This document shows positions 18,944-38,415 of a DNA stretch of 38,415 nucleotides, one piece after another. The notes under the pieces were generated by a model. The model was not told where the DNA came from and searched no databases. It worked only from the letters and a program-made list of their open reading frames with translations. The number at the start of each line of letters is the position of its first letter. Position 1 is the stretch's first letter. Source of the DNA: Clostridiales bacterium Firm_05 (GTDB lineage Bacteria > Bacillota > Clostridia > Oscillospirales > Ruminococcaceae); NCBI GenBank assembly GCA_001604035.1, contig LVAK01000012.1, forward strand, positions 1 through 38,415, given 5' to 3'. A program made the position numbers and the translations under genes.

Positions 18944-21900
18944 ATGAAGAAAATACATAAACTTACATCATTTCTGACAGCTGCGACAATGGCTCTTTCA
19001 ATGTCAGTATCTTTCAGTGCAGCTGCTGTAATGCAGCCTGAGGAAGGAAAAAAAGCATATGCAGATCTACAGGCTCGTGCAAGAGCTTTCAGGGTTGACG
19101 ATGCGGTTCTGAATCAGAAGTATAACAATGCAAAAACACGTATCCAGAATAACACCGGAACTTTTGATATTTTTTCAGATCGTCCTTATGGTGACGAAGG
19201 AATAAACTACGGTGATTACCAGGTTATCAGAGATACTATCAATTATCTTTATAAAAAAGATGGTTTTAACAAGAAGTCATTCCCACTGAGCGAGATCGCC
19301 GATTATAACAGAGTAAGATGTGATGTGGACGGCGACGGAGAGCTTAGCTACTATGACTATTGCAGTATGCTCAGATATGTTCAGGAGCAGATCGGACTGA
19401 CTGATGATTATACAGATCTTACAAGAAAAACTGAAAATCAGCGTCTCCAGCTGGTAGGCGGTGAAGGTGCAGTAGGCCTGAAAAAGCTGGTTTCAGACAA
19501 GGAGAATATCACTCTTCCTTCAGAGATCTGCTGCAAGGTTAAGCTCAAAGGCGAAGACGGCAAACTTGTCGATTCGTGGTGTATTTTACCTGTTATTCAG
19601 ATAGAAAAAAATGCATTTTCAAAATGCACAAACATGAAAAAGCTCACTATCAGAAACTACATACAGCCTGAATGGTTCATGAAGCCTGAAGGATATGATT
19701 GTGAGGAAGCACTTTTCTCCGGTAAGCTCAGAGCTATCGAAAACGGCGGAACTGTTGCAGACTGTACATATATCGATATAAAGGATGGCGCATTCAATGG
19801 TTGTACCGGTCTTGAGACTGTTAATTTCCAGGAGAACGTTAACTTCAGCCAGAAGGTTTTTGCCGGAACAAAGTTTGGCAGCTCATCCAATGTTTATAAC
19901 GCTGATAATGGCATTTGTTATGTAAAGAGCAGCGACGGAAGAGCACTCGCAGCTTGCGGTATCTATGATCCATACAAGGCCCTTAAGGAGCGTAACGGTA
20001 TCCTTAATTTTGATATTGAAGACGGAACCACAACGATTACAAGCAATCTCAGAACTGCATTCAATATTTCTGACAAGAACAAGGAGATATCACTGAATAT
20101 CCCTGATTCCGTCAGATATATCCATAATGACGCCTTCTCATCAGGCGAGACATTTGACTATTCTTCAGACAAGAAGATCAATGTTGACTGCTATTCAATA
20201 AAGTGGGTGAACGGCAAGAGCTTTGAAGAGCTCTGTGCAGATTATGAAGGTCAGAGGATCGATCCTGAGACTCTTGATGAAGACGAAAGAAAAAAATGGA
20301 CTCCGACTTTTGACGAATTCCTGAGAAACAATAACGGTTCATTCAAGGGCACACAGTTTATGGCAGATCCTGTCAAGAACATCATTGCCGCTAAGGTAAA
20401 GGAGATCAAAGCGGATCCAAATAATAAAACAGACCGTGACAAGATAGAGGCTGCCTGCAAGTATATTTTTGAGCAGGCTGAGTATTCAACATATGTTGAC
20501 GGAGATTATGCCTTAAGCGATTTCTCACTTTTCCCAAATGACCTTTACAATACACTTGATGAGGCCAGAACAAATAACTTTGCTCCGACAAATGCATTCC
20601 TTACACATCATACAATGTGTGAGAGCTATTCATATGCAGTATCATTGATGCTTGATTCTCTCGGTATAATAAATCACACTATGGGCTGCAACGGTCATGC
20701 ATATAACATCGTATACGTTGATGGAAAGTGGCAGATCGTAGATATGTCTGTATATGGATCTTTTGATCGCAACTATGCTCTCTACTCAGAATCAGAGGAT
20801 ACATCATTTATCAGAAACGAACTTACCATATTAAATAATAAAGACGAATATGCTCTCTATCCGAATGATCCCAAAAACCTTTATGGTGAAAGCGGAGGCG
20901 GCTATTATCCGGCTGCAAGCATAGCCGGCAGCTCGAAGCTTGCCGTATTCAAGGAGAACAACGGATCAAGCGATCTTATAGCTGAGGATGTACATTACAA
21001 TATCGTTGGCCTGAGCGATGACCAGACCTCTATAACAATTGCACTGCCTTCCGGTAATATCCCCAGGTCAATAGAAAAAGACATTGCTGCTGGAAGGATC
21101 AATGTTTTCAACGGCAATGGCATTGTTAGGATCAATGGATCAGATTACTATTTTGAGAATAACAGGATAGTTACAGGACCGTGCTGGCGTGATATCAATG
21201 GTAAACATTGCTATATAAAGGCTGATAATTCAATAGCAAGATATGAGATTGTTGAAATACCTGTAAACGGAGAAAAAGTAAGCATCTACTTTAATGATGA
21301 TTACAGTGCTTACACAGGTGCTTGGTTCAGCGATGATATGTTCTGCTATTACGATGGCTATAATGGTATGTTAAAAAATGGCTACGGAAACGTTAATGGC
21401 GTAAGATATTATTTTGATAATGAAGGCCGTATGGAGCATGGCGAAGGCTGGTTCAGCTTCAATGGCGGAAAGTTCTACTTTAAGAATAATAATACATTCG
21501 CCTGTGATGAAGATCTTGAGCTGCCTGTAGACGGAAAAATGCAAACATTCAGATTCAATTCTAACGGCACACTTCTTATCGGAATAGACAGACTTAACGA
21601 TGGTATGCGTTATTTCTCTTCGTCAGGAATAGTTATGCATGATAAGGGCTGGTATGAGGCTGAGCCTGCTAAGTGGTTCTATTTTAAGGATACCGGTGTT
21701 GTTGCATATGACGAGGACTATGAGATCTCAGGTAATCTGTACAGATTCAATTATGACGGTACTTTTTTCTGGGGCTTTGGAAAAAAAGACGGATATTTAC
21801 GTTTCTTTGACCTTAATAACGGAATGCTCAAGAATGAAAATGAATTCTATAATTATGATAATGAAACATACTATTTCAAGGAAAATGGTATATTAGCCTG

Positions 21901-22162
21901 CAACGAGTGGCTTTATCACGATGATAACTACTATTTATTCTCTGTAAGTGGCCGTATGTTCAAAAACTCATTTGTTGAATTGGACGGAGCATACTATCAT
22001 CTGGATAACGATGGAATCATGGCTGCTAATTCAGATGTTGAGTGGAAAAACGGAATAAAGCTTCATGCTTCTGCTAATGGAGATCTCGACCTTTCTGTTC
22101 TGAGCGAATATCAGAAGGCTGAATTCCAGAATGAAGCAATTGTATATGCAAATGCAAAATAA
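18944..22162 (+). CDS. Secreted transglutaminase-like protein with leucine-rich and cell-wall-binding-type repeats
   Basis: A protein of 1072 residues. A Sec signal covers about residues 1-28. A single dockerin-type EF-hand loop (DVDGDGELSYYD, 127-138) is followed by BspA-like leucine-rich segments (EKNAFSKCTNMKKLTI, KDGAFNGCTGLETVNF; about 220-310). The transglutaminase/protease-like core lies at about 480-620 with C559 (HHTMCESYS), H585 (CNGHAYN) and D600 (QIVDMSVYG) as the probable triad. From about 720 to the end are aromatic-Gly repeats of the choline/glucan-binding type (GVRYYFDNEGRM, GGKFYFKNNN, DGAYYHLDNDG). GGAGG (18930-18934) precedes ATG 18944. Likely a surface-bound processing or crosslinking enzyme, or a non-catalytic adhesin. 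Partner and substrate are unknown. Confidence 0.8.
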   Translation: MKKIHKLTSFLTAATMALSMSVSFSAAAVMQPEEGKKAYADLQARARAFRVDDAVLNQKYNNAKTRIQNNTGTFDIFSDRPYGDEGINYGDYQVIRDTINYLYKKDGFNKKSFPLSEIADYNRVRCDVDGDGELSYYDYCSMLRYVQEQIGLTDDYTDLTRKTENQRLQLVGGEGAVGLKKLVSDKENITLPSEICCKVKLKGEDGKLVDSWCILPVIQIEKNAFSKCTNMKKLTIRNYIQPEWFMKPEGYDCEEALFSGKLRAIENGGTVADCTYIDIKDGAFNGCTGLETVNFQENVNFSQKVFAGTKFGSSSNVYNADNGICYVKSSDGRALAACGIYDPYKALKERNGILNFDIEDGTTTITSNLRTAFNISDKNKEISLNIPDSVRYIHNDAFSSGETFDYSSDKKINVDCYSIKWVNGKSFEELCADYEGQRIDPETLDEDERKKWTPTFDEFLRNNNGSFKGTQFMADPVKNIIAAKVKEIKADPNNKTDRDKIEAACKYIFEQAEYSTYVDGDYALSDFSLFPNDLYNTLDEARTNNFAPTNAFLTHHTMCESYSYAVSLMLDSLGIINHTMGCNGHAYNIVYVDGKWQIVDMSVYGSFDRNYALYSESEDTSFIRNELTILNNKDEYALYPNDPKNLYGESGGGYYPAASIAGSSKLAVFKENNGSSDLIAEDVHYNIVGLSDDQTSITIALPSGNIPRSIEKDIAAGRINVFNGNGIVRINGSDYYFENNRIVTGPCWRDINGKHCYIKADNSIARYEIVEIPVNGEKVSIYFNDDYSAYTGAWFSDDMFCYYDGYNGMLKNGYGNVNGVRYYFDNEGRMEHGEGWFSFNGGKFYFKNNNTFACDEDLELPVDGKMQTFRFNSNGTLLIGIDRLNDGMRYFSSSGIVMHDKGWYEAEPAKWFYFKDTGVVAYDEDYEISGNLYRFNYDGTFFWGFGKKDGYLRFFDLNNGMLKNENEFYNYDNETYYFKENGILACNEWLYHDDNYYLFSVSGRMFKNSFVELDGAYYHLDNDGIMAANSDVEWKNGIKLHASANGDLDLSVLSEYQKAEFQNEAIVYANAK

Positions 22163-22359: not shown

Positions 22360-22410
22360 GGAATAAATTGTGTTAAAAGAAAAATGTTTGAGGAACGGAG
22401 GCTGAGCTGT

Positions 22411-24741
22411 ATGTTTACTGCCCATATACGGGAACCTGGAAATGAAAAGCAATCTGTAAAAGAGCACAGTGAAAATGTTTCTGCATTGGCAGGAGAGTTC
22501 CTGCGTTCATGCGGATTGTTTGAGACTGGCAAACTGGCCGGACTTCTTCACGATGCCGGAAAACTGAGAGCAGTCTTTGATGATTACATAAACAAAAGAA
22601 ACAATATGAGGCGGGGCAGCATAGATCACAGCTATGCCGGTGCAAGATATCTGAAAGAGCTTGCTGAGAATAAGGATCCAAAGATAAAGGCAGCGGCGGC
22701 AGGTATAGCGCATACGATACTATCACATCACGGCATAAGCGACTGGCTTGATTCGGACGGCAATGATGAGTATCAGCGCCGCACCTCAAAAAATGATGAT
22801 TATGAAGAGATATGCTCTAATATATCGGATATCATCCCGGAGCAAATGGCAGACGAAATGCTTTCCGCAGCTGCGGAAGAGTGGCTGAATATCGCAGGAA
22901 AACTGATGCGCCTTGCTAAAGGTGAAGATGCTAAAAGAGAAGCGGCGTTTTATATAGGTATGCTTGAAAGGCTGATACAGTCTGCACTTATAGATGCTGA
23001 CAGAACTGATACGGCTGATTTTATGTCGGGGCGGGCAACTGAGCACGAGCCTGATCGTGCCGGGCTGTGGATGAACATGGATAAGCGCATGGATGAAATG
23101 CTTGCAGCTTTTTCAAAGCTTACCGACAGTATCTCCGTTCAGAGAAGAAGCATATCCGACAGGTGTGCTGCATTTGCTGAGCATAAAGTCGGCGCTTGCA
23201 GACTTATAGTTCCCACCGGCGGCGGAAAAACACTGTCCTCACTCAGATTCGCAATAAAGCATTGCAAAAAATACGGCTTGAAAAGAATAATTTACATTGC
23301 ACCGTTCATGTCCATACTCGAACAGAACAGTGATATTATTGCATCCATTGCCGGTGAAGAGAACTTTCTTGAGCACCATTCCAATATGGTCTCGGAAATT
23401 GACAACACAAAGGAACTGGAGGATTACCTGCTATGTGCCGAACGCTGGGACAAGCCGGTGATCGCCACAACAATGGTGCAGTTCCTGAATACGCTATTTT
23501 CTGCAAAGACTTCCTCGGTAAGAAGGATGCACAGACTTTGTGATTCGGTGATAATAATCGATGAGGTGCAGTCTGTGCCAATAAGATGTACTGATCTGTT
23601 CAGCCTTGCAGTGAATTTCCTTGTGGATCAATGTAATGCTTCGGTAGTTCTGTGCTCTGCAACTCAGCCGCCTTTTGATGAGAGAAAAAGTTACAGGCTT
23701 CTGCTGGATGAGGAAAAAGATATGGCAGGAGATCACACTAAGGATTTTGAGGTGTTCAGACGCACTGAGATCATTCCTCAGCTTAAGAAGTACGGCTATG
23801 ATACAGAAGAGGCGGTGGGATTCTGCTCTGAGAAATTCAGAGAAAATGGTGACCTGCTGCTGATAGTCAACACAAAGGCTCAGGCAAAGGAGATGTACGA
23901 AAAGCTTCGGGAACAGCTTGGTAGTGAGGCATATCTGATACATCTGAGCACAAATATGTGTCCTGCTCACAGAAAAAAGCGCATTGGTACACTGAGAAGA
24001 TTCCTGAAAAGGAATATGCCTGTAGTATGTGTAACGACTCAGTTGATAGAGGCTGGAGTGGATATATCGTTCAGATGTGTGGTGCGGGCGATAGCCGGAC
24101 TTGACAATGCAGCTCAGGCCGCCGGACGCTGTAACAGAAGCGGAGAGTATAACAGGATATGTCCGGTATACCTCATCAATTTCAAGTCGGAGAACCTGAG
24201 CCGCCTTGAAGAAATAAAGTCTGCACAGGATATCTCACGTCATATCATAGACAATGGTGACGATGATCTGTTGTCTGTGGATGTACAGAGCAGATACTTC
24301 AATATGCTTTTTGAGCGGTACAAAAATGAGCTTTCTTATAATGTTAAAGACGGCAGTCAGGACTCATCTATCCTTGAATTTCTCTCAACGAATAAAGGCC
24401 GCTGGATCGTAAGACAAAAGACGGAGCCTATTATTTCTCAGGCGTTCAGAACTGCCGGCGAGCTTTTTGAGGTAATAGACAGCAGGACAAAGAATATCAT
24501 TGTTCCGTACAATAAACAGGCAAGAGATATAATTGCCAAGCTTGAAAGTGATATTTCCCCTCAGGAGACAGTGGAGCTGCTGAGAAAGGCGCAGAAATAT
24601 ACCGTCAGCATCTATTCCGGAACAGAAAAAAGACTGATCGAAAAAGGTGCGCTTGATCTTAATACATTGGACAAGCGCTTTTACAGCAATGAGTTCGGAG
24701 TTACACTTGAAGGCGCTGAACAAGAGGTACTGATATTCTGA
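22411..24741 (+). CDS. cas3: Cas3 helicase-nuclease, type I-C
   Basis: A protein of 776 residues. ATG 22411 is preferred to 22384 because GGAGG (22397-22401) has the right spacing. The HD nuclease domain comes first (H19 in VKEHSENV, H47-D48 in GLLHDAGK, and a later SHHG). The SF2 helicase follows: Walker A PTGGGKT (268-274), DEVQ box (384-387), SAT motif III (416-418) and motif VI Q569-x3-R573-x2-R576. Cas3 is recruited by DNA-bound Cascade after full R-loop formation and degrades the target strand. It lies at the usual first position of a I-C locus but, unlike many, is separated from cas5c by 234 bp holding a second promoter and a minus-strand crRNA-like gene. All key residues are intact. 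Confidence 0.95.
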   Translation: MFTAHIREPGNEKQSVKEHSENVSALAGEFLRSCGLFETGKLAGLLHDAGKLRAVFDDYINKRNNMRRGSIDHSYAGARYLKELAENKDPKIKAAAAGIAHTILSHHGISDWLDSDGNDEYQRRTSKNDDYEEICSNISDIIPEQMADEMLSAAAEEWLNIAGKLMRLAKGEDAKREAAFYIGMLERLIQSALIDADRTDTADFMSGRATEHEPDRAGLWMNMDKRMDEMLAAFSKLTDSISVQRRSISDRCAAFAEHKVGACRLIVPTGGGKTLSSLRFAIKHCKKYGLKRIIYIAPFMSILEQNSDIIASIAGEENFLEHHSNMVSEIDNTKELEDYLLCAERWDKPVIATTMVQFLNTLFSAKTSSVRRMHRLCDSVIIIDEVQSVPIRCTDLFSLAVNFLVDQCNASVVLCSATQPPFDERKSYRLLLDEEKDMAGDHTKDFEVFRRTEIIPQLKKYGYDTEEAVGFCSEKFRENGDLLLIVNTKAQAKEMYEKLREQLGSEAYLIHLSTNMCPAHRKKRIGTLRRFLKRNMPVVCVTTQLIEAGVDISFRCVVRAIAGLDNAAQAAGRCNRSGEYNRICPVYLINFKSENLSRLEEIKSAQDISRHIIDNGDDDLLSVDVQSRYFNMLFERYKNELSYNVKDGSQDSSILEFLSTNKGRWIVRQKTEPIISQAFRTAGELFEVIDSRTKNIIVPYNKQARDIIAKLESDISPQETVELLRKAQKYTVSIYSGTEKRLIEKGALDLNTLDKRFYSNEFGVTLEGAEQEVLIF

Positions 24742-24761
24742 ATCGGGGTTACATAACAACA

Positions 24762-24852
24762 CACCGCACAGGAATATCTCCTATGCGGTGCGCTGCCGGC
24801 TCTGACCGATAATATAATCTGTTTAATTTCAATCCACGCACACAAGTGCGAC
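24762..24852 (-). ncRNA. crRNA-like Cas-regulating RNA (CreR-type autorepressor of the cas5c operon)
   Basis: Read on the minus strand. Positions 24852-24826 are a degenerate CRISPR repeat of 27 nt against 33 in the array. It starts GT, has a 5-bp stem CGCAC-TTGT-GTGCG in place of the 7-bp stem, and keeps the 3' handle TGGATTGAAAT exactly. Positions 24825-24791 form a 35-nt spacer-like segment, a length common in the array. Its first 17 nt are the exact complement of ATAATATAATCTGTTTA at 24936-24952, over the cas5c -10 box, and the bases 5' of that target on the minus strand are TTC. Positions 24790-24762 form a 12-bp hairpin followed by a moderately T-rich stretch, a likely 3' end in place of a second repeat. 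Family knowledge: comparable crRNA-like regulators repress cas promoters through partial matches in other subtypes. Expression is inferred. Confidence 0.8.
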
Positions 24853-24857
24853 AACTT

Positions 24858-24889
24858 ATTATATCATATATAATATTCTATAATGTAAA
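24858..24889 (-). promoter_or_regulatory. Probable promoter of the crRNA-like RNA
   Basis: On the minus strand a perfect TATAAT (24863-24858) places the start near 24851, at the first bases of the degenerate repeat. A TTTACA (24889-24884) lies upstream but at 20 bp, longer than ideal, so the -35 assignment is tentative. It is divergent from the cas5c promoter. Confidence 0.45.
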
Positions 24890-24916
24890 CAAATTGTGAA
24901 CAGTGGCAGGAAAGAC

Positions 24917-24945
24917 TTGACAAGTGCAAAAGAATATAATATAAT
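24917..24945 (+). promoter_or_regulatory. Promoter of the cas5c-cas8c-cas7c-cas4-cas1-cas2 operon
   Basis: Perfect TTGACA (24917-24922), 17-bp spacer, perfect TATAAT (24940-24945). Such a consensus promoter should be very strong unless restrained. The start point near 24952 and the -10 box lie inside the 17-bp sequence matched by the crRNA-like RNA. Confidence 0.85.
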
Positions 24946-24955
24946 CTGTTTAGAA
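24936..24955 (-). promoter_or_regulatory. Predicted Cascade operator: 17-nt protospacer plus TTC PAM over the cas5c promoter
   Basis: The minus strand reads TTC (24955-24953) and then the 17 nt identical to the start of the crRNA-like spacer (24952-24936). The identity stops at 24935; beyond it only scattered bases match, so the R-loop would be incomplete. Binding here would cover the -10 box and start site. Confidence 0.75.
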
Positions 24956-24975
24956 AATAAAAAGGAGGTGCGGGA

Positions 24976-25722
24976 ATGCAAAAACACCGGAATACCGTTG
25001 AGTTCTGTGTCCATGGAAAGAATGCGTTGTTTTCAGATGTGCTTACCCGTGTGGGAGGAGAGAAGTTCAGCTACTCCGTTCCGACATATGAAGCACTTAA
25101 AGGTATACTTCACAGTATATACTGGAAACCGACTTTCACCTGGTATGTAGACGGGGTGCGAATAATGAACCGTATCAAGAACGTGCGGAAGGGCATACGT
25201 CCTATCAAGTATGACGGCGGAAATGACCTTGCATATTACAATTATCTTGAGGATGTCTGCTATCAGGTCAGAGCACATTTTGAATGGAACTACAACCGCC
25301 CTGAGCTCGAACAGGACAGGAACGAGCACAAGCATCACAATATCGCCAGACGTATGATAGAGCGTGGCGGAAGGCGTGATATCTTCCTCGGAACACGGGA
25401 GTGTCAGGGCTATATTGAGCCCTGTGAGTTCGGCGAAGGCAATGGAGCTTATGACGGAGTTGATATGGATCTGTCATTCATGTATTACGCTATGATCTAT
25501 CCTGATGAGGCGGAAAAGGAAGAGGACAGGGGCTTTATGACAGCCTGTTTCTATAAACCGGAAATGAAAAACGGAATAATAGAGTTTGTACGTCCTGCTG
25601 ATATACTGCCGGAGCATAAGCGGCATATCAAGAAAATGGGTATAAAGCCCTTCGGCAGAGAATTTGACAATTTCATCGGTCTTGATGAATTTATCGGAGG
25701 TGAAGCTGATGAGTTGGACTAA
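24976..25722 (+). CDS. cas5c: Cas5c (Cas5d), crRNA-processing Cascade subunit
   Basis: A protein of 248 residues. In type I-C, Cas5 replaces Cas6: it cuts the repeat hairpin and stays on the 11-nt 5' handle. The catalytic residues known from the Bacillus halodurans enzyme have clear equivalents: Y49 in SIYWKP, K119 and H120 in RNEHKHHNIARRM. Further family stretches are PTYEALKGIL, GGRRDIFLGTRECQGY and MYYAMIYPDE. AAAGGAGGTG (24961-24970) precedes ATG 24976. It ends 14 nt inside cas8c. Because the handle TGGATTGAAAT is shared by the array repeats and by the minus-strand crRNA-like RNA, this enzyme could in principle process both. Confidence 0.95.
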   Translation: MQKHRNTVEFCVHGKNALFSDVLTRVGGEKFSYSVPTYEALKGILHSIYWKPTFTWYVDGVRIMNRIKNVRKGIRPIKYDGGNDLAYYNYLEDVCYQVRAHFEWNYNRPELEQDRNEHKHHNIARRMIERGGRRDIFLGTRECQGYIEPCEFGEGNGAYDGVDMDLSFMYYAMIYPDEAEKEEDRGFMTACFYKPEMKNGIIEFVRPADILPEHKRHIKKMGIKPFGREFDNFIGLDEFIGGEADELD

Positions 25723-27538
25723 TGAGCTTTACAAGGTTTATGAGCTGGCTGAGACAGACAAGGATATGCTGCCGATATCCCATTCTACTGCAAATGCACA
25801 GATAGAAGTGACTGTAAGTGAGGAAGGCGAATTCGTAAGCGCCTCGGCTGTTGATAAGGAAAATACAGTTACAATAATACCTGTGACCGAAGATTCAGGA
25901 GTCAGGACGAACGGTATAAATCCGATGCCGCTTGCAGATAAACTGCTTTATATTGCAGGAGATTACAGCAATTATGCCAAGGGAAAGCGTTCGGATAATT
26001 CCGAATACTTCAGTGCATATATGAAACAGCTTGGCGAATGGTGTAAAAGTGAATATTCTCACTTTGCTGTTGCTTCAGTGTATGCTTATCTTGAAAAGCA
26101 GCAGCTTATCCGTGATCTGATACAGTGCGGTATCATAGAGCTTGATGAGGACGGTAAATTTGCTGATAAGAAATTCAACAATATCGCTCAGGAGGATTCT
26201 TTTGTAAGGTTTATCGTAAGCGGAAAAAGCGGCCTTTGCTATACATGGCAGGACAAAAAGCTTTACAAGTGCTTTCAGGATCATTATGAATCCAGCTTTG
26301 ACAGTAATGATCTGAGCTATGCTGACGGAAAAAGAGGAGCTGTTACATATAAGCATCCTTCCAAAATACGCAACAGCGGCGATAAAGCAAAGCTCATATC
26401 AGCAAATGACAGCTCAAATTATACATTCCGTGGACGATTTTTAAATAAGGAGGAAGCAGTTGCTGTAAGCTATGAGTTTTCTCAGAAAATGCATAATGCG
26501 CTGAAGTGGCTTGTGTCAAAACAGAGCCGTTCCTATGATTCACTGACACTTGTTACCTGGAACAGTGCCCTTGGATATGTTCCAAGTGTTACCAAAAGTG
26601 TATTTGAATTATTTGATGACGTTGAGGAATATGATACAATACCAAAATTCTCAGAAAAACTTAACAAGAAGCTTATGGGCGGCAAGACTGACTTCGATCC
26701 GGCTGACAAGGTCATGATAATGGGACTTGATGCCGCAACCACAGGAAGACTGTCGATAGCACTATATGCCGAGCTAATGGAATCTGATTTCTACGCTAAT
26801 CTTAAAAGGTGGCACAGTGAAACTGTATGGAGCAGATACAACGGCAAGCTTGGAAAAACAGTGGAGGATTCATGCAGCCTTCCGCAGATAGCAAATTGTC
26901 TATATGGAAATGAGCAGAACGGATTTCTTTCGTGTGATAAAAAACTCATGGGCGATGTTATACTGAGACTGCTCCCATGTGTTGCAGAGGGAAAAAGGCT
27001 TCCCCACGATATAGTGATGATACTCTGCGAAAGGGCTTCTGCACCGCTTTCATACGAGAAGGAGTATAACCACCGGACGATCATCGAAAACGCCTGTGCT
27101 CTCATTAGGAAGGAGCAGGCAGAGCATGATAATAAACTTTATTACAAAGGAGAGATAAAAATGGCATATGATCCGAATTGTACCGATAGAAGCTATCTCT
27201 ACGGCTGTCTGCTTGCAATAGCTGACAAGGCGGAAAGTGATACATATGATGCGAATGAAAAACGTGTTACCAACGCAAGACGTTTCTGGAACGCTTTTTC
27301 GTCACGCCCGTATCAGACCTGGAAAATAATCGAGGAAAGGCTTGAGCCTTATCTTGAAAAAGAACAGTGGGCAATGAAAAAGTATACAAAGCTCATCAAT
27401 GAGATAATGATGAAGATGTCACCGGAGGAATTTGCCGATAACAGCAAGCTGTCTCCCATGTATCTTATTGGCTACCACCATTATAATGCAATGCTCTGGA
27501 ACAATAACAAGACTGCTGATGATAAAGAGGAGGAATAA
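25709..27538 (+). CDS. cas8c: Cas8c (Csd1), Cascade large subunit
   Basis: A protein of 609 residues, within the family's usual 570-620. ATG 25709, with GGAGG at 25696-25700, overlaps the end of cas5c by 14 nt; an upstream in-frame ATG at 25664 would add 15 residues without a ribosome binding site. Csd1 hallmarks include NPMPLADKLLYIAGDYSNYA, CYTWQDKKLYKCFQDHYES, MIMGLDAATTGRLSIALYAEL, DRSYLYGCLLAIADKAE and the C-terminal helical small-subunit-like part (NARRFWNAFSSRPYQTWKIIEERL). It recognises the PAM; type I-C complexes of this family read TTC. An internal translation start giving a separate small subunit (Cas11c) is known for this gene family; a candidate is ATG 27161, preceded by AAAGGAGAG, at MAYDPNCTDRS. 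Confidence 0.94.
   Translation: MSWTNELYKVYELAETDKDMLPISHSTANAQIEVTVSEEGEFVSASAVDKENTVTIIPVTEDSGVRTNGINPMPLADKLLYIAGDYSNYAKGKRSDNSEYFSAYMKQLGEWCKSEYSHFAVASVYAYLEKQQLIRDLIQCGIIELDEDGKFADKKFNNIAQEDSFVRFIVSGKSGLCYTWQDKKLYKCFQDHYESSFDSNDLSYADGKRGAVTYKHPSKIRNSGDKAKLISANDSSNYTFRGRFLNKEEAVAVSYEFSQKMHNALKWLVSKQSRSYDSLTLVTWNSALGYVPSVTKSVFELFDDVEEYDTIPKFSEKLNKKLMGGKTDFDPADKVMIMGLDAATTGRLSIALYAELMESDFYANLKRWHSETVWSRYNGKLGKTVEDSCSLPQIANCLYGNEQNGFLSCDKKLMGDVILRLLPCVAEGKRLPHDIVMILCERASAPLSYEKEYNHRTIIENACALIRKEQAEHDNKLYYKGEIKMAYDPNCTDRSYLYGCLLAIADKAESDTYDANEKRVTNARRFWNAFSSRPYQTWKIIEERLEPYLEKEQWAMKKYTKLINEIMMKMSPEEFADNSKLSPMYLIGYHHYNAMLWNNNKTADDKEEE
27161..27538 (+). CDS. cas11c: Probable Cas11c small subunit from an internal start within cas8c
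   Basis: Inside cas8c, AAAGGAGAGATAAAA (about 27148-27160) provides a good ribosome binding site for the in-frame ATG at 27161 (MAYDPNCTDRSYLYGCLLAI). The product would be 125 residues, all helical in character, covering the C-terminal domain of Cas8c. Family knowledge: type I-C systems make Cas11 from an internal start in cas8c, and it lines the Cascade belly. The matching position, length and ribosome binding site support this, but translation was not observed. Confidence 0.65.
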   Translation: MAYDPNCTDRSYLYGCLLAIADKAESDTYDANEKRVTNARRFWNAFSSRPYQTWKIIEERLEPYLEKEQWAMKKYTKLINEIMMKMSPEEFADNSKLSPMYLIGYHHYNAMLWNNNKTADDKEEE

Positions 27539-27541
27539 AAA

Positions 27542-28399
27542 ATGAGCGTACTTCAGAACAAGATCGATTTTTCAGTTATTATAACTGCTAAGAATGCAAA
27601 TCCTAACGGTGATCCGCTGAACGGAAACCGTCCGAGAGAGAATTACGATGGCTTCGGCGAGATAAGTGACGTCTGCATAAAGAGAAAGCTCCGCAACCGC
27701 TTACAGGATATGGGCGAGAAGATATTCGTTCAGTCAGATGACAGATGCGATGACGGACAGAAGAGCCTCCACGATCGTGCCAAGGCTTGCGAAGCACTTG
27801 CAAAGATCACCAAGGGCAAGGATACTGACAGAGATCAGTTTGCAAAGGCTGCCTGTGAGGAGTGGATCGATGTCCGCAGCTTTGGTCAGGTCTTTGCATT
27901 CAAGGGTGATCCTGTATCAGTGGGCGTAAGAGGTCCGGTGTCAATTCAGCAGGCAGAGAGCATTTCTCCTGTGGACATTGTAAGTATGCAGATAACCAAG
28001 AGTGTTAACGGTGAAAGCGGAAAGGACGGCAAGGCATCTGATACTATGGGAACAAAGCATAAGGTGGACTTTGCCCTATATGTATTCCACGGCAGCATCA
28101 ACTGTCAGCTCGCTGAAAAGACCGGATTTACCGAGGAGGACGCAGAGAAAATAAAGCTGGCTCTTGAAACACTGTTTGAGAATGACTGCTCATCTGCAAG
28201 ACCGGAGGGCAGCATGGAGGTAAGGCGTGTTTACTGGTATAAGCATGACGGCAAGACTCCTAAGAATTCATCTGCAAAGGTACATCGCCTTCTTAATGTA
28301 GTTATGAAGGACGGTGTGGAAAGACCTCGCCGCTTTGAGGATTACGATATTACACTTGATACTATAGACGGACTGGAGCCGGAGATATTCGAGAGCTGA
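27542..28399 (+). CDS. cas7c: Cas7c (Csd2), Cascade backbone subunit
   Basis: A protein of 285 residues. The N-terminus, DFSVIITAKNANPNGDPLNGNRPREN, is the signature of Csd2/Cas7 backbone proteins, followed by VRSFGQVFAFKG, SVGVRGPVSIQQAESISPVDI and GTKHKVDFALYVFHG. Several copies coat the crRNA spacer. The gene begins 3 nt after cas8c, with GAGGAGG inside the end of cas8c, and has well-used codons, in keeping with its high stoichiometry. One nucleotide separates it from cas4. Confidence 0.95.
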   Translation: MSVLQNKIDFSVIITAKNANPNGDPLNGNRPRENYDGFGEISDVCIKRKLRNRLQDMGEKIFVQSDDRCDDGQKSLHDRAKACEALAKITKGKDTDRDQFAKAACEEWIDVRSFGQVFAFKGDPVSVGVRGPVSIQQAESISPVDIVSMQITKSVNGESGKDGKASDTMGTKHKVDFALYVFHGSINCQLAEKTGFTEEDAEKIKLALETLFENDCSSARPEGSMEVRRVYWYKHDGKTPKNSSAKVHRLLNVVMKDGVERPRRFEDYDITLDTIDGLEPEIFES

Positions 28400-28400
28400 G

Positions 28401-29060
28401 ATGTACAGCGAGGATGAGTATCTGCAATTGTCAGGCATACAGCATTTTGTCTTCTGCCGCAGACAATGGGCACTCATACATATCGAGCAGCAGTGGGAGG
28501 AGAATTACCGTACTGCTGACGGCAGAGTTATGCACAGGAACGTTCACAATGCAGATCTCCATGAAAAAAGAGGAGATGTTGTCATATCCCGGGCGATGGC
28601 TGTTTCGTCTGCATCGCTGGGAATAAGCGGAGAATGTGATGCAGTCGAATTCCGCAGGGACGATCGTGGGATAGAGGTATTCGGCCTTGAAGGCAGATAT
28701 TCTGTTACGCCTGTGGAATACAAGCGTGGCGAGCCAAAAGAGGATGACAGCGATATCATGCAGCTTGCCTTACAGGCAATGTGTCTTGAGGAAATGCTTT
28801 GCTGTGAAATAAGTACAGGATATCTTTATTACGGCGAAACAAGGCGCCGTACAAAAGTGGATATCACTGATGAGCTGCGTGACAGAACAAAGGCTGCCCT
28901 CGCTGAAATGCATGATATGTACCGCAGGAGATATACGCCGAAGGTCAGGCGCAGCAAGGCCTGCAATGCCTGTTCGCTGAAGAATATCTGCCTGCCGGTG
29001 CTGTGCTCTGAAAAAAGTGCAAGAGCCCATATATTGTCAATGCTGGACGAGGAAAAATGA
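28401..29060 (+). CDS. cas4: Cas4 exonuclease, spacer-adaptation factor
   Basis: A protein of 219 residues. Four cysteines bind the iron-sulfur cluster: C19 (FVFCRRQ) and C188, C191 and C197 (KACNACSLKNIC). RecB-type nuclease residues are visible: D80 after GISGEC, E106 and K108 in VEYKRG, Q121 and Y143/Y144. Cas4 works with Cas1-Cas2 to choose prespacers with the right PAM and to trim their ends, which is relevant to the repeated PAM-edge-fixed acquisitions in the array. It starts 1 nt after cas7c stops and 1 nt separates it from cas1. Confidence 0.95.
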   Translation: MYSEDEYLQLSGIQHFVFCRRQWALIHIEQQWEENYRTADGRVMHRNVHNADLHEKRGDVVISRAMAVSSASLGISGECDAVEFRRDDRGIEVFGLEGRYSVTPVEYKRGEPKEDDSDIMQLALQAMCLEEMLCCEISTGYLYYGETRRRTKVDITDELRDRTKAALAEMHDMYRRRYTPKVRRSKACNACSLKNICLPVLCSEKSARAHILSMLDEEK

Positions 29061-29061
29061 T

Positions 29062-30093
29062 ATGAAAAAGCTGCTGAATACATTGTATATCACTTCGCCT
29101 GACAGATATCTTTCCCTTGACGGGGAGACCATTGTTATAAAAAGTGATGGAAAAGAGATCGGCAGAGTGCCGCTCCATAATCTTGAACGGATAATGACTT
29201 TCGGCTATACAGGCGCAAGTCCTGCGCTTATGGGAAAGTGTGCCAAGGAAGGTATCGAACTTGTATTTATGAGCGGAAACGGACACTTTCTTGCCGCAGT
29301 TGAGGGAGAGATGAACGGAAATGTACTGCTGCGCCGTCAGCAGTACCGCCTGGCAGATGATAGAGAAAGAGCACTGGATATTGCGAAAAATATAATATGT
29401 GCCAAACTTTTCAACAGCAGGTGGACTGTTGAACGGACGCTGAGAGATCATTCGCTGAGGATCGATACAGAAAAGTTTATGCACTGCTCTGAGCTGCTTA
29501 AACGATCATCCAAAGCCGCACTGGAAGCAACTGATATGGATACACTGAGAGGCATAGAGGGTGAAGGGGCACAGATATATTTTTCTGTGTTCAATGATAT
29601 GATACTCCAGCAGAAGGAAGATTTCTGCTTTACTGTAAGGAATAAGCGTCCGCCGAAGGATAATGTTAATGCATTGCTTTCATTTGCTTATTCACTTGCA
29701 ACGAGTATGTGTACCTCTGGACTGGCTTCTGTCGGACTTGATCCATATGTGGGATTTATGCATACAGACCGGCCGGGAAGACGTTCGCTTGCGCTTGATC
29801 TTGTAGAGGAATTCAGAGCACCGCTTTGCGACAGGTTTGTTATCACTCTTATCAATAAGAAAATGATAACAGCTGCTGAGCTTGAAAAGCGTGAGGACGG
29901 TGCAGTTATTCTGACGGAAAACGGAAGAAGGACATTCATCACAGCATGGCAGAAACGCAAAAGCGATGAGCTGAGGCATCCGTTTCTTGATGAAAAGCTG
30001 GAATGGGGGATGCTCCCATATTCTCAGGCGCTGTTGCTTGCAAGATATATAAGGGGAGACCTGGACGCATATCCTCCGTTTATGTGGAAGTGA
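29062..30093 (+). CDS. cas1: Cas1 integrase
   Basis: A protein of 343 residues from ATG 29062; an in-frame start at 29017 lies inside cas4 and is rejected. Catalytic metal ligands by position: E166 (RGIEGEG), H234 (GFMHTDRPGR) and D246 (LALDLVEEFRAPL). The N-terminal beta domain includes VPLHNLERIMTFGYTGASP. Together with Cas2 it integrates spacers at the leader end of the array. All catalytic residues are intact, in keeping with an active adaptation module. Confidence 0.96.
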   Translation: MKKLLNTLYITSPDRYLSLDGETIVIKSDGKEIGRVPLHNLERIMTFGYTGASPALMGKCAKEGIELVFMSGNGHFLAAVEGEMNGNVLLRRQQYRLADDRERALDIAKNIICAKLFNSRWTVERTLRDHSLRIDTEKFMHCSELLKRSSKAALEATDMDTLRGIEGEGAQIYFSVFNDMILQQKEDFCFTVRNKRPPKDNVNALLSFAYSLATSMCTSGLASVGLDPYVGFMHTDRPGRRSLALDLVEEFRAPLCDRFVITLINKKMITAAELEKREDGAVILTENGRRTFITAWQKRKSDELRHPFLDEKLEWGMLPYSQALLLARYIRGDLDAYPPFMWK

Positions 30094-30097
30094 TAAT

Positions 30098-30388
30098 ATG
30101 CTGGTACTTATAACTTATGATGTAAATACATCAGATAGTGCAGGAAAAAAGAGACTGAGACACGTTGCGAAGCAGTGTGTGAATTATGGCATAAGAGTTC
30201 AGAACTCGGTGTTTGAATGTGAGCTTGATCCTGCAAAATGCCGTATGCTCAAACAAAAGCTGAAAGAAGAGATCGATGCTGAAAAAGACAGCCTGAGGTT
30301 TTATTACTTAGGCGACAGGAAAAAGGCGAAGATCGAGCATATCGGTGCAAAAGAAACGATAAAGGTGGACGAACCGCTTTTATTCTGA
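30098..30388 (+). CDS. cas2: Cas2
   Basis: A protein of 96 residues, the usual length. It has a ferredoxin-like fold with the conserved Asp in the first strand (LVLITYDVNT, D8) and the typical GIRVQNSVFECEL and SLRFYYLGD segments. It forms the dimeric bridge of the Cas1-Cas2 integrase. It starts 4 nt after cas1 and is the last gene before the leader. Confidence 0.96.
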   Translation: MLVLITYDVNTSDSAGKKRLRHVAKQCVNYGIRVQNSVFECELDPAKCRMLKQKLKEEIDAEKDSLRFYYLGDRKKAKIEHIGAKETIKVDEPLLF

Positions 30389-30548: not shown

Positions 30549-33500
30549 GTCGCTCCCTTCACAGGGAGCGTGGATTGAAATATCGTTATTCTGAATAATG
30601 TCATATGCTTTATTCAGTCGCTCCCTTCACAGGGAGCGTGGATTGAAATAGCGCCTTATATGCTGCTATGATCTTAGGCCAGGTCGCTCCCTTCACAGGG
30701 AGCGTGGATTGAAATTCTGATATGCAGAAAGAGGAGAAGGAAGCAGCTGTCGCTCCCTTCACAGGGAGCGTGGATTGAAATTCCGAGAATGCTCACAGTG
30801 ATCGATAAGCCCAGGGTCGCTCCCTTCACAGGGAGCGTGGATTGAAATACATATAAAGAAGCAATAGGGTCTGATATAGATGTCGCTCCCTTCACAGGGA
30901 GCGTGGATTGAAATCCATTAATGCGGAAATTGAAAAATTTGAAGCTGAGAGTCGCTCCCTTCACAGGGAGCGTGGATTGAAATGTCCTTGGTATTGGCGA
31001 TAGTCTCGAGCGCAAAGGGTCGCTCCCTTCACAGGGAGCGTGGATTGAAATTCGACAAGTATAACAACTTTAAAGACCACGAGAGTCGCTCCCTTCACAG
31101 GGAGCGTGGATTGAAATAACTATTGATGAGGTATACTTATTATCACGATACATGTCGCTCCCTTCACAGGGAGCGTGGATTGAAATCATTGCTCAAATAT
31201 ATGCCGATGCTTATCAGGCTGTCGCTCCCTTCACAGGGAGCGTGGATTGAAATACCGTATGTCTAATACCTGTACCTATATGCGTGCGTCGCTCCCTTCA
31301 CAGGGAGCGTGGATTGAAATAAGATTGAAATTGACGAATGTGTTATTGATTGCAGTCGCTCCCTTCACAGGGAGCGTGGATTGAAATCACTTGTCCTGAC
31401 TTGCTGTATAGCTGGTAGTGAGTCGCTCCCTTCACAGGGAGCGTGGATTGAAATACCGCACACTCAACGGCGGCGAGGCTCTCGTGTATGTCGCTCCCTT
31501 CACAGGGAGCGTGGATTGAAATAATGGGTGGCGAATTTTACGAAAAGACAAAACCAGTCGCTCCCTTCACAGGGAGCGTGGATTGAAATGCGGCAAAGAG
31601 AATAACACAGGACAGAGAATTCCTGTCGCTCCCTTCACAGGGAGCGTGGATTGAAATAGAGAGGGGTATTGATATGACCGCAAAGGAACTATGTCGCTCC
31701 CTTCACAGGGAGCGTGGATTGAAATCTTGGTGCTATCGTTGACAAGTGTGCACGCATGGTCGCTCCCTTCACAGGGAGCGTGGATTGAAATCTCACAAAT
31801 AATCCTATTGATGTAATATGCGGACGTCGCTCCCTTCACAGGGAGCGTGGATTGAAATATAGTCACCAATGCCGAGCAGCTGCTCGTTGAATGTCGCTCC
31901 CTTCACAGGGAGCGTGGATTGAAATGACGATCTCCTCGGGGAGAGCCTCGAATGTATCGGGTCGCTCCCTTCACAGGGAGCGTGGATTGAAATACACTCA
32001 ATTAACAATAATAAGCGCCCTCGCAAGTCGCTCCCTTCACAGGGAGCGTGGATTGAAATATACACGGAATATAGTTGACGGTGTAGAGGACTGTCGCTCC
32101 CTTCACAGGGAGCGTGGATTGAAATGTCAATTTCTAACGGCATTATCCGCAGCACAAAGTCGTCGCTCCCTTCACAGGGAGCGTGGATTGAAATAAGCCT
32201 CTTGACAAGATCGCTCACTCTCTATATGTCGCTCCCTTCACAGGGAGCGTGGATTGAAATATGATGAGGCTAAGCCTTTTATGATCGCACTCTCAGTCGC
32301 TCCCTTCACAGGGAGCGTGGATTGAAATAGGACTATCTAACGAGCGGCTCTCTCGGAGCAAAGGTCGCTCCCTTCACAGGGAGCGTGGATTGAAATAAGT
32401 TATGGCCTCTCGTGCAAAAAGCCGGTATACATGTCGCTCCCTTCACAGGGAGCGTGGATTGAAATCCGAGGGGGAGGGTGCTCCGATACGTATCTCAACG
32501 TCGCTCCCTTCACAGGGAGCGTGGATTGAAATTTCTGGAATTGCCTAAGAGATTAGGCCTGAGCAGTCGCTCCCTTCACAGGGAGCGTGGATTGAAATTC
32601 CTGTAGTTGTACCCCACTCGTCAAATAGAGGGTCGCTCCCTTCACAGGGAGCGTGGATTGAAATTATCACAAAGAGAACAAAAGAAGTTTTACAGGGTTG
32701 TCGCTCCCTTCACAGGGAGCGTGGATTGAAATCCATGATGAGGGCGCACCCCATATGTCGGGATTAGGGTCGCTCCCTTCACAGGGAGCGTGGATTGAAA
32801 TATAGTTGAGCTGTATGATGTAGAGGCTATTGATGTCGCTCCCTTCACAGGGAGCGTGGATTGAAATTTATCCAGCGTTACACCCATTGCATACCTGTCA
32901 GTCGCTCCCTTCACAGGGAGCGTGGATTGAAATGCAGCGATTACTATACACCTGAGCAGATATGTGAGTCGCTCCCTTCACAGGGAGCGTGGATTGAAAT
33001 AATTCCATCCGAGGTAAAAGCATATCCGTAAAGGACGTCGCTCCCTTCACAGGGAGCGTGGATTGAAATAAAAACTGCTCAGGAGTATAGAGCTAATTTC
33101 TCAGTCGCTCCCTTCACAGGGAGCGTGGATTGAAATATTTTGGCGCAGTAGATTATGAGGAAACATTTAGTCGCTCCCTTCACAGGGAGCGTGGATTGAA
33201 ATTGTCAGATATTGTGACGGTAATATAAAATACTTATGTCGCTCCCTTCACAGGGAGCGTGGATTGAAATTGTATAATCTCCCAGGAGATTAAAACCTAT
33301 ATCACGTCGCTCCCTTCACAGGGAGCGTGGATTGAAATATCACCAGGATTCATTACATTCCATGCGCTGAAATGTCGCTCCCTTCACAGGGAGCGTGGAT
33401 TGAAATTCCAGGGACAACAACTTGTGTCAAATGGTTCTCCCGTCGCTCCCTTCACAGGGAGCGTGGATTGAAATGCTAAAATATCAATACTGCCGGCGCT

Positions 33501-36500
33501 GAATCCCTGGTCGCTCCCTTCACAGGGAGCGTGGATTGAAATCTGCACTATGCCGGTTTTTCCGGTTACTTCTCCATAGTCGCTCCCTTCACAGGGAGCG
33601 TGGATTGAAATCATAATGAGCAAGAGCCGCACAAAGGATCCTAAAAGTCGCTCCCTTCACAGGGAGCGTGGATTGAAATGGATCAATCGGAAGCTGCGAA
33701 TCCGGCGCATAAGTCGTCGCTCCCTTCACAGGGAGCGTGGATTGAAATAACTCTTCGATCCTCGTTTATGATTCCGAGTGCGTCGTCGCTCCCTTCACAG
33801 GGAGCGTGGATTGAAATTTGAATCCGCTTATACTCGATCAATTAGGCGCCCCGGTCGCTCCCTTCACAGGGAGCGTGGATTGAAATATTTTTTATAACCA
33901 AACCTGCAAAAATAACTTTGTCGCTCCCTTCACAGGGAGCGTGGATTGAAATTACGAGTGGTTATACCGGGGCGGCTATGCTAAATGTCGCTCCCTTCAC
34001 AGGGAGCGTGGATTGAAATGAGCTCGTACTCTGAGGCGGCTAACCTCGTGCCGTCGCTCCCTTCACAGGGAGCGTGGATTGAAATAAACCGCTTGGAAAT
34101 ATATTATAAAACGCCTCGGGTCGCTCCCTTCACAGGGAGCGTGGATTGAAATTATGAGGTATACGGCGAGGCGCCGACCGTCTCCTGTCGCTCCCTTCAC
34201 AGGGAGCGTGGATTGAAATGTTTTAACGTTACCGGTACGAGCCTCAAAAAGCTGTCGCTCCCTTCACAGGGAGCGTGGATTGAAATGAGCTCGTACTCTG
34301 AGGCGGCTAACCTCGTGCCGGTCGCTCCCTTCACAGGGAGCGTGGATTGAAATTACCCAACCGGGGGACGTGGAACGGCATTACATAGTCGCTCCCTTCA
34401 CAGGGAGCGTGGATTGAAATGAGCTCGTACTCTGAGGCGGCTAACCTCGTGCCGGTCGCTCCCTTCACAGGGAGCGTGGATTGAAATTCGAGGCCTCTTA
34501 TCGTATTAATGGTACGGTTGGTCGCTCCCTTCACAGGGAGCGTGGATTGAAATTCGATAAAGCTCGACGACCTATACAAGAATCTTGGTCGCTCCCTTCA
34601 CAGGGAGCGTGGATTGAAATAATTATTATACCGGTAATGAGGTATTAAAGAACGTCGCTCCCTTCACAGGGAGCGTGGATTGAAATGTTTAAAGTTAAAA
34701 AATGCAATCAATAACGACAGTGTCGCTCCCTTCACAGGGAGCGTGGATTGAAATACACTGTGTCGACCACGACAGCAACGCCATTATGTCGCTCCCTTCA
34801 CAGGGAGCGTGGATTGAAATCGCTTAACATCGTGGAGTGGTCATTAGCGCAGGGTCGCTCCCTTCACAGGGAGCGTGGATTGAAATAAGAGGTGATTATT
34901 AATGTCAAAAAGAACCGCCACGTCGCTCCCTTCACAGGGAGCGTGGATTGAAATGATAAGACTTTTACAAAGTCCATTTGCGGAAACGTCGCTCCCTTCA
35001 CAGGGAGCGTGGATTGAAATCGCTTAACATCGTGGAGTGGTCATTAGCGCAGGAATGTCGCTCCCTTCACAGGGAGCGTGGATTGAAATAATGCGGTGAA
35101 CGGCTCGGGCGAGAACGTCGCCGGTCGCTCCCTTCACAGGGAGCGTGGATTGAAATCTGACCGGGGGTTGCACTGCCTGCGTACTTGCTGTCGCTCCCTT
35201 CACAGGGAGCGTGGATTGAAATGGTGTCCGTGCGAACACATTCAACGAGCAGCTGCTGTCGCTCCCTTCACAGGGAGCGTGGATTGAAATACGGCGGTAA
35301 GATCTCTCGCCGAGCTCAATAAGGTCGCTCCCTTCACAGGGAGCGTGGATTGAAATATCAAATCAAAGAACGTTATAACAGTATGTTATAGTCGCTCCCT
35401 TCACAGGGAGCGTGGATTGAAATAGCGATTGGAGGTGATTAAGTTGGATAATATATTAGTCGCTCCCTTCACAGGGAGCGTGGATTGAAATAGAGATAGA
35501 GCTCTCCGAGGCTATTAACGTCATTTGTCGCTCCCTTCACAGGGAGCGTGGATTGAAATAACGTTACAAGCAAGCTGGCGCAGCAGACCACTGTCGCTCC
35601 CTTCACAGGGAGCGTGGATTGAAATTTCTATAGCTCTCTCATAATGAATACGCTGATTATGTCGCTCCCTTCACAGGGAGCGTGGATTGAAATGACCGGC
35701 GGGCGTGGTAATATTGCAACCAGTTGGTCGCTCCCTTCACAGGGAGCGTGGATTGAAATCCCGGTTGGGGAGTATATTACTATCAATAGGCAGTCGCTCC
35801 CTTCACAGGGAGCGTGGATTGAAATAATAGCGCTTTTCTCAATGTCACGAGAGAGTATTGTCGCTCCCTTCACAGGGAGCGTGGATTGAAATCAACAACT
35901 TCCAACACTTCCAACAGCTTACAACGTCGCTCCCTTCACAGGGAGCGTGGATTGAAATCCTCAGTAACGGTATTATTAGAAATACAAAGGGACGTCGCTC
36001 CCTTCACAGGGAGCGTGGATTGAAATTCGATCAGACAGGAGAATTTTATAATCCAGCGGGTGTCGCTCCCTTCACAGGGAGCGTGGATTGAAATTCAAAG
36101 GGTGCTTTAATGTTACCCGTTGCCCTCGGTCGCTCCCTTCACAGGGAGCGTGGATTGAAATATTTACAAAGATAACAAATTCACTGAAACAATAAGTCGC
36201 TCCCTTCACAGGGAGCGTGGATTGAAATCCTCGACTAACTGTTTATAAAGATCGTCAAGCTTGGTCGCTCCCTTCACAGGGAGCGTGGATTGAAATGAGC
36301 TAATACGAGACGGCCGCTCGTTAGAGAGCGTCGCTCCCTTCACAGGGAGCGTGGATTGAAATGAGCTAATACGAGACGGCCGCTCGTTAGAGAGCTCAGT
36401 CGCTCCCTTCACAGGGAGCGTGGATTGAAATTGATAAGCCGAGTGCGTTATGCCGTACTTTTTGGCGTCGCTCCCTTCACAGGGAGCGTGGATTGAAATT

Positions 36501-38415
36501 CCGTCCGGTCTCTAATGATATGTTAGTGATATAAGTCGCTCCCTTCACAGGGAGCGTGGATTGAAATAACAACTGAAAGTGAACCAAAATACAATAACGA
36601 TGTCGCTCCCTTCACAGGGAGCGTGGATTGAAATTTTACAACGGAGTAGATTCAAGGGAGTTTGGCAGTCGCTCCCTTCACAGGGAGCGTGGATTGAAAT
36701 ATCGAAAGAACAGAAGCGCTGATAGCTGCATTCACGTCGCTCCCTTCACAGGGAGCGTGGATTGAAATATGACAAAGCGTATGAATCTGCCGCCAAGAGT
36801 GCGGTCGCTCCCTTCACAGGGAGCGTGGATTGAAATTTGCCTATCAACTTTTTTACAAAATTATGTTAGGTCGCTCCCTTCACAGGGAGCGTGGATTGAA
36901 ATGCTCCTCAGCTCCCTTAACAGTTTATGTGCCTGGGTCGCTCCCTTCACAGGGAGCGTGGATTGAAATTTTGCTGTTTTTGTGTAATCCGCCTTTGTCG
37001 TTGTCGCTCCCTTCACAGGGAGCGTGGATTGAAATTCGAAGTTTATCGATAACTTCAAACGTTTTTAGGTCGCTCCCTTCACAGGGAGCGTGGATTGAAA
37101 TTAACGTGCTCCTTCGGCTCGACTTATATAGGACTGTCGCTCCCTTCACAGGGAGCGTGGATTGAAATGTGAAGTTACTGGTCATATTATGGCTTTGCTT
37201 AAAGTCGCTCCCTTCACAGGGAGCGTGGATTGAAATACCAAATGAAAGTTATTTTTTATGTTTGCCCTTGTAGTCGCTCCCTTCACAGGGAGCGTGGATT
37301 GAAATATATAAAAACTCCTTCCGTTCGTACTGCTCCGCAGTCGCTCCCTTCACAGGGAGCGTGGATTGAAATTGCAACTACTCGAAATGATGACAGAAGA
37401 ACAACAGGTCGCTCCCTTCACAGGGAGCGTGGATTGAAATTTAACATCTATAAAAAACCGTGCAAGAGCAACAAAGTCGCTCCCTTCACAGGGAGCGTGG
37501 ATTGAAATTTTCTGTAGAAGACGTAAACCAAGAAATCATAGAAGAGTCGCTCCCTTCACAGGGAGCGTGGATTGAAATGATAAACTATTAGGAAGTGAGG
37601 TGTAAATATTATGGTCGCTCCCTTCACAGGGAGCGTGGATTGAAATATATTGTGTGCATTATATTGGGTTTTGCGCTGATGTCGCTCCCTTCACAGGGAG
37701 CGTGGATTGAAATTCTGAGGTCAATATAGGGCTTTCCGAGAGCTCCCGGTCGCTCCCTTCACAGGGAGCGTGGATTGAAATTAACACAAAGTAGTAAATA
37801 CAAATCAGGTGTATAGTCGCTCCCTTCACAGGGAGCGTGGATTGAAATTCATTTTGCTAAAAAATATTGCACAACACTGTTGAGTCGCTCCCTTCACAGG
37901 GAGCGTGGATTGAAATAGCACCATATACTTCTATTCTTCATATCAGAACAGTCGCTCCCTTCACAGGGAGCGTGGATTGAAATATCAATCTGTAAACTTG
38001 CATTGATATCTCTTGCAGTCGCTCCCTTCACAGGGAGCGTGGATTGAAATGACAGATATAATAATTATCTCCGAATTCTGTTATAGTCGCTCCCTTCACA
38101 GGGAGCGTGGATTGAAATGGCGAAACAGAAATTTATATTAATCCTCAGACCGGCGTCGCTCCCTTCACAGGGAGCGTGGATTGAAATCAACCAGTATAAA
38201 GCATTATCCATAGCATTTACGTCGCTCCCTTCACAGGGAGCGTGGATTGAAATCCCATATTAGTGAGCATAACGTCAGTACGGATAGTCGCTCCCTTCAC
38301 AGGGAGCGTGGATTGAAATATCAACAGTATTGTGCAATATTTTTTAGCAAAATGGTCGCTCCCTTCACAGGGAGCGTGGATTGAAATTGCTCCGGCTGAC
38401 TGGGCAACTGCAACA
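30549..38415 (+). CRISPR. Type I-C CRISPR array, 117 repeats in the window, continuing beyond its end
   Basis: The 33-nt repeat runs GTCGCTCCC-TTCACA-GGGAGCG-TGGATTGAAAT, with a 7-bp stem (CGCTCCC/GGGAGCG) and the I-C handle at its 3' end. I located 117 copies by start position, from 30549 to 38355, and saw no variant. There are 116 complete spacers of 33-37 nt (mean period about 67.3 nt) and a partial one of 28 nt after the last repeat. The absence of degenerate distal repeats implies the true end lies further on. The leader is on the cas2 side, so spacer 1 at 30582 is newest. Repeated spacers: 52, 56 and 58; 64 and 67; 86 and 87. Opposite-strand or overlapping spacers: 20 with 70; 109 with 116. 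Divergent homologues: 60 with 85; 27 with 86. Confidence 0.99.

Follow-up and report, generated by a model that had tools for sequence, protein, structure and literature searches.

A crRNA-like gene lying between cas3 and cas5c of a clostridial type I-C locus very probably serves as a CreR-like autorepressor, by which the Cascade complex would keep down its own cas operon, as judged from the sequence of the locus and its relatives. The gene is carried by Clostridiales bacterium Firm_05 (assembly GCA_001604035.1), and the window, meaning the whole stretch of DNA that was analysed, covers 38,415 nt of contig LVAK01000012.1. A sequence-only reading of the window had proposed self-repression of the operon by guide-loaded Cascade, and this reading is supported by the comparisons made here within the genome and among related loci.

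The window carries seven cas genes on its plus strand, identified by Pfam matches. They are cas3 with HD and helicase domains (22384–24741), cas5c (24976–25722, PF09704), cas8c or Csd1 (25664–27538, PF09709), cas7 (27542–28399, PF05107), cas4 (28401–29060, PF01930), cas1 (29017–30093, PF01867) and cas2 (30098–30388, PF09827). This order is that of type I-C, and the seven ORFs scanned, cas3 through cas2, gave no Cas6 hit. The large protein just upstream of cas3 (18944–22162) has BspA-type leucine-rich repeats and cell-wall binding repeats.

The CRISPR array, with the repeat GTCGCTCCCTTCACAGGGAGCGTGGATTGAAAT, occupies 30549–38415 on the plus strand and continues towards the contig end. Its 101-nt stretches 34254–34354 and 34388–34488 are identical, reflecting an internal duplication of repeat-spacer units. 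A phage search with the array spacers, aimed at the PAM of this system, yielded no PAM and only 5 records at 69–82% identity, the best three of them spread over much of the array. The repeat handle GTGGATTGAAAT has 117 exact copies on one strand of the genome and 1 on the other. The places listed for the 117-copy strand are all inside the array, and the lone opposite-strand copy is the element in the cas3-cas5c gap.

This element, which has cas3 upstream of it, is read from the minus strand. Its single degenerate type I-C repeat, GTCGCACTTGTGTGCGTGGATTGAAAT, spans 24852–24826 and combines a 5-bp stem with the intact array handle. The sequence-only reading had described one repeat-like element here with its handle whole and with a shortened but paired stem, CGCAC with GTGCG; re-reading the sequence agrees on the former and folding recovers the latter. 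The 35-nt segment that it had placed after the handle is to be shortened, the distance from handle to hairpin being 29 nt (24825–24797). It had also missed the element's own extended −10 box, TGATATAAT, which lies at 24866–24858 on the minus strand, 5 nt ahead of the repeat, with the same spacing in relatives.

The 29 nt form a spacer-like segment and its first 17 nt, TAAACAGATTATATTAT (24825–24809), are the guide. An 18-bp hairpin with a weakly U-rich tail follows at 24796–24756 (−27.3 kcal/mol, z −6.9 for 24758–24797). It is likely the 3′ end or terminator of the RNA and possibly a stand-in for a second repeat. A terminator scan of the window found none, and the hairpin has no clear T run. 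Only one handle is present in the gap when up to two mismatches are allowed, and with this single handle and a hairpin after the spacer the element is not a two-repeat mini-array. In the fold of the 102-nt RNA predicted from the −10 box onwards, the guide lies open between the repeat stem and the 18-bp hairpin (−43.9 kcal/mol, z −5.2). The sole Rfam match over 24300–25300 is one miRNA model, far below its gathering score.

The guide points at the promoter of the first gene behind the gap, cas5c. This promoter, at 24917–24945 on the plus strand, has TTGACA and TATAAT 17 nt apart and agrees with the consensus at 12 of 12 bases. The guide equals its minus strand at 24952–24936, a stretch that runs from the −10 box as far as the likely start of transcription, and TTC, the candidate PAM adjoining guide position 1, occupies 24955–24953 on the minus strand. 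The match ends after 17 nt in the window. All three of these points had been put forward from the letters and stand as claimed. Across the 265 contigs of the genome, a search for PAM plus guide that accepted any base at positions 6 and 12 and up to two mismatches gives one perfect place, which is this target, and one further place with 2 mismatches.

We surveyed type I-C loci for the same arrangement. Cas5c relatives were matched in 12 of 60 related genomes, in 19 of 125 genomes of the genus and in 116 of 396 genomes of the family, many of the last being other Cas5 types; from the family search only its 63 strong places (counted by eye) were taken and its weak rows were left out. Further survey loci comprise at least 80 named loci of genome contigs and 1 viral locus, and 11 loci of other Cas5 relatives (L010–L015 and L025–L029) were dropped before counting. 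The resulting 158 loci reduce to 133 distinct by cas5 sequence, 130 of them with at least 300 nt upstream. An element was called by the handle alone, with at most one mismatch, on the minus strand and within 420 nt of cas5.

By this handle-only search the element is found in 21 of the 130 distinct type I-C loci. A cas3-cas5 gap of 100 nt or longer is present in 31 loci; these include all 21 carriers, and in the remaining 10 no element was detected. Two of these 10, L021 and L104 (the latter from Ruminococcus flavefaciens SAb67), have by eye a broken handle and guide and a changed promoter, and are probably decayed elements. L017, in genome G077, retains handle and guide remnants near the cas5 start (100 nt upstream) and is apparently a natural case of the circuit being lost through a deletion; it is left out of the 21 because its promoter region is missing. 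Ruminococcus sp. YE71 has two type I-C cas5 loci, L097 and L095, with the element at L097 only. Judged by record names, many of the carrier Clostridia come from gut and rumen.

The elements share their anatomy. The repeat stem has at least 5 bp, G-T pairs allowed, in 20 of 21 and 4 bp in L087; it changes on both sides, the second pair being G-C in 14 elements and A-T in 7. In 20 of 21 a TG-preceded −10-like box, with six variants accepted, is placed 5–7 nt ahead of the repeat, and L113, mis-scored by the script, has by eye TATACT at the same spacing. A hairpin of at least 8 bp begins 22–40 nt past the handle in every element, as counted with the best hairpin of each and no shuffled control. 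Its tail has at least four T in a row in 17 of 21 elements by eye, the window not among them.

Guides were then compared with promoters, each guide being placed in its own promoter region at the site with the most matches overall, blind to PAM and position. Over the 17 positions the own promoter has no mismatch in 5 loci, one in 7, two in 7, four in 1 and five in 1 (n = 21). Hence 19 of 21 own promoters have at most two mismatches, against 18 of 420 swapped pairs, in which each guide was set on the other 20 regions, and 20 of 4200 shuffled guides. These swap and shuffle controls rule out chance as the source of the guide-promoter match.

The guides themselves differ between loci, with 20 distinct ones among the 21 elements and a median of 7 differences between two; therefore, guide and promoter change together. 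In L016, whose cas5 sequence equals that of L089, the guide departs from that of the window at positions 3, 5 and 7 and the promoter departs likewise. L103 and L111 share one guide, to which the L103 promoter is identical, and the L111 promoter differs from it only at positions 6 and 12. The sequence-only reading had suggested comparing the cas3-cas5 gaps of relatives, and a promoter kept while its 17-nt match drifts freely was to count against the idea. The reverse is observed, as the guide tracks its own promoter in 19 of the 21 handle-defined elements.

TTC adjoins the target in 19 of 21 loci, the exceptions being L087 with TTT and L113 with CTA. It also adjoins the best site in 48% of the swapped pairs; its presence is thus partly due to conservation of the promoter itself, and TTC is weaker evidence than the match. 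Two loci fit poorly. L113, with 4 mismatches besides CTA in place of TTC, looks decayed, and L118 has TTC but matches only to position 13.

The mismatches that do occur are not scattered. The 19 close pairs have 21 of them, 12 at position 6, 5 at position 12 and one each at 10, 11, 13 and 17, leaving 4 of 21 off positions 6 and 12. Against an even spread the excess at 6 and 12 has p = 6e-13 with mismatches treated as independent, a value that overstates the case because the loci are related and their mismatches not fully independent. In the swapped pairs with at most two mismatches, 5 of 30 mismatches fall at 6 or 12, and in the shuffled guides the positions are about even. Class 1 complexes flip out every sixth crRNA base, according to the available passages of two papers (PMC11127173; PMC5904413). 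The six-nucleotide phase is the strongest sign that Cascade would be the reader of the element's RNA.

Guide and target are identical at position 17 in 18 of the 19 close pairs, at position 18 in 1 of 19 and at positions 19 to 30 in 3–8 of 19. The low value at 18 (p = 0.01 vs an assumed 0.3) suggests a selected stop of pairing.

These regularities bear on two other origins of the match. One is that a piece of the promoter was copied by gene conversion or duplication beside a stray repeat, without any guide function; in plain DNA the match is indeed a direct repeat and includes a common −10 sequence. Such copying, however, gives no account of mismatches concentrated at 6 and 12 (17 of 21), of a match whose start adjoins both the handle and TTC, or of stem pairing kept through base changes, and we consider it very improbable.

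The other origin is a fossil, in which a piece of the own promoter was once acquired as a spacer and the array later decayed to one repeat. Repeat, spacer and PAM are arranged as in a self-targeting spacer, but a full-length match is then expected, and in the 19 close pairs it breaks off after position 17. Moreover, the elements come with a promoter box and with a hairpin further downstream, and 20 different guides aim at equivalent sites across species. A fossil spacer is extremely improbable on these grounds.

Similar elements occur outside the cas3-cas5 gap. A scan upstream of cas3 in 61 loci, which skipped regions with more than three handles and ranked sites by total mismatches, gave 7 handles with at most one mismatch. 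Targets upstream of cas3 lie beside TTT in L131 (mismatches at 6 and 14), L155 (at 12) and L160 (none), and L148, whose handle has 2 mismatches, has a 17/17 match upstream of cas3 beside TTT. The L109 target upstream of cas3 is beside TTC with 4 mismatches (6, 12, 15 and 17), and L143 matches there over 11 nt only, beside CTC. L145 has a handle upstream of cas3 and no matching target in that region, and the handle upstream of cas3 in L149 is taken for chance. The six matching records are named Clostridia bacterium, Clostridium sp., Oscillospiraceae bacterium, Coprococcus catus, Clostridiaceae bacterium and Christensenellaceae bacterium.

A phylum-wide pattern scan matched 16 of 398 genomes at 17 places, one of them the window's element. 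Among the other 16 places, 14 are in arrays, including the window's array, and 2 are single (15 loci inspected). One of the single places, L172, has a TTT-flanked target with mismatches at 12, 16 and 17, its contig ending soon after; for the other, L176, no target was found.

In viruses, 47 stretches (L189–L235) match a pattern of promoter box, GTC, gap and handle, and 36 of these 47 loci have a single exact handle. They are Racr-like candidates by their sequence, and some without an evident stem may be chance. Viral contigs searched with the pattern for guides like the window's gave 0 matches. One viral contig, L169, encodes a Cas5c relative, and no element was found there.

The viral stretches raise the alternative that the clostridial RNA is itself a Racr-like decoy, which mainly occupies Cas proteins and matches the promoter incidentally. 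Their single repeats have a similar promoter-repeat layout, and a type I-C Racr inhibits its system as described in the available part of the publication (PMC10651486). Yet guide and promoter stay matched in 19 of 21 loci, and none of the 47 viral matches has a best surveyed-locus site with at most two mismatches and TTC, taking the best site per locus and strand. We regard a mere decoy as very unlikely.

Regulation might also come from transcription itself, the minus-strand promoter causing interference or antisense effects on cas3 read-through. The RNA gene does face cas3 and sits in the gap. This kind of regulation, however, neither requires nor explains the guide-promoter match, the PAM and the six-nucleotide phase, and is exceedingly unlikely as the explanation.

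For the preferred autorepression by guided Cascade, we propose the following route. From the extended −10 promoter a minus-strand RNA would begin roughly where the repeat does, Cas5c would cut it at the handle and the hairpin-ended single-repeat RNA would be loaded into Cascade. The complex would read TTC and pair the guide over the cas5c −10 box for 17 positions, equal to three 6-nt Cas7 segments minus the flipped-out last base. Bound there, it would keep RNA polymerase from transcribing cas5c-cas8c-cas7-cas4-cas1-cas2, and the match would be too short for Cas3 to cut. The outcome would be negative feedback on Cascade and the adaptation genes, with cas3 upstream of the targeted promoter, and array crRNAs competing for Cascade would lift the repression. 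We infer the transcription, processing, binding, repression and relief from the features of the loci.

Published data on related systems, as given in the portions of the papers available, are in line with several of these steps. Cas5c processes the RNA in type I-C (PMC11127173). The Xanthomonas type I-C system functioned only when 27 or more bases matched after TTC (PMC8406640). The E. coli type I-E Cascade reached maximal affinity with a match of no more than 18 bp, and E. coli Cas3 action needs more extensive pairing than Cascade binding (PMC5904413). Therefore, a 17-nt match should suffice for binding but not for cutting, and a partial-guide repression without Cas3 action would agree with the Xanthomonas and E. 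coli data.

CreR regulators are described for types I-B, I-E and V-A in the available text of a 2026 review (PMC13131331), for type I and V-A in that of another paper (PMC12737573), and are treated also in a third (PMC12948488). As in CreR, where Cascade or Cas12a is the repressor, a crRNA-like gene with a repeat-like element is found inside the cas locus, and its spacer shows partial complementarity to the promoter of the cas operon it belongs to, with a PAM adjoining. Unlike the I-B, I-E and V-A forms in these texts, the present one belongs to type I-C and has one repeat followed by a hairpin and a 17-nt match with 6 and 12 free. No type I-C case of CreR was found among the literature matches listed. 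Thus, the kind is already known, whereas an I-C form that has a single repeat, ends in a hairpin and shows a six-nucleotide mismatch phase was not found in the literature listed.

Standalone repeats and mini-arrays, most of them of type I, whose spacers are in part complementary to cas promoters were reportedly collected by Shmakov et al. 2023, and are said to have often two repeats around the spacer and targets near cas8. In contrast to those elements, there is one repeat here and the target is the cas5c promoter. Since they are said to be mostly type I, I-C cases may already be among them. A natural single-guide tracrRNA of the type II Cas9 also reportedly represses cas genes with a partial guide (Workman 2021).

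CreA of the CreTA module, in the available text of PMC9458426, similarly has a degenerate repeat (one or two), a spacer partly matching a promoter and Cascade as the repressor. It represses a toxin, whereas here the cas5c promoter of the cas operon is targeted and not a toxin gene. The scaRNA of Cas9, a type II effector, is alike in that a CRISPR effector represses a gene of the host under the direction of a partial guide, as the same text has it. Racr is alike as a solitary repeat unit made as a small RNA, which is predicted here, and exists for type I-C according to the accessible part of PMC10651486. It is described there as a virus-borne inhibitor, unlike the present element, which sits in the cas locus between cas3 and cas5c, with a guide that coevolves with the cas promoter.

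On balance we favor the broader view that clostridial type I-C systems carry a standard one-repeat autorepressor shaped by Cascade geometry. Selection would hold positions 1–5, 7–11 and 13–17, free 6 and 12, and stop the match at 17, sparing the call for Cas3. Where the gap exists, cas3 would stay outside the circuit and therefore Cascade and the adaptation genes would be set separately from the nuclease. In gapless loci, the target would be upstream of cas3, often beside TTT.

The mismatch phase would be a natural footprint, left in regulatory guides, of how Cascade reads DNA. Such guides could be found without expression data by seeking matches broken only at every sixth base. The match length tolerated before Cas3 recruitment becomes testable as well, because the close pairs keep position 17 and, in 18 of 19, do not keep 18. 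These results give strong evolutionary evidence that a number of Clostridia use the compact, Cas6-less type I-C Cascade to repress transcription of its own operon.
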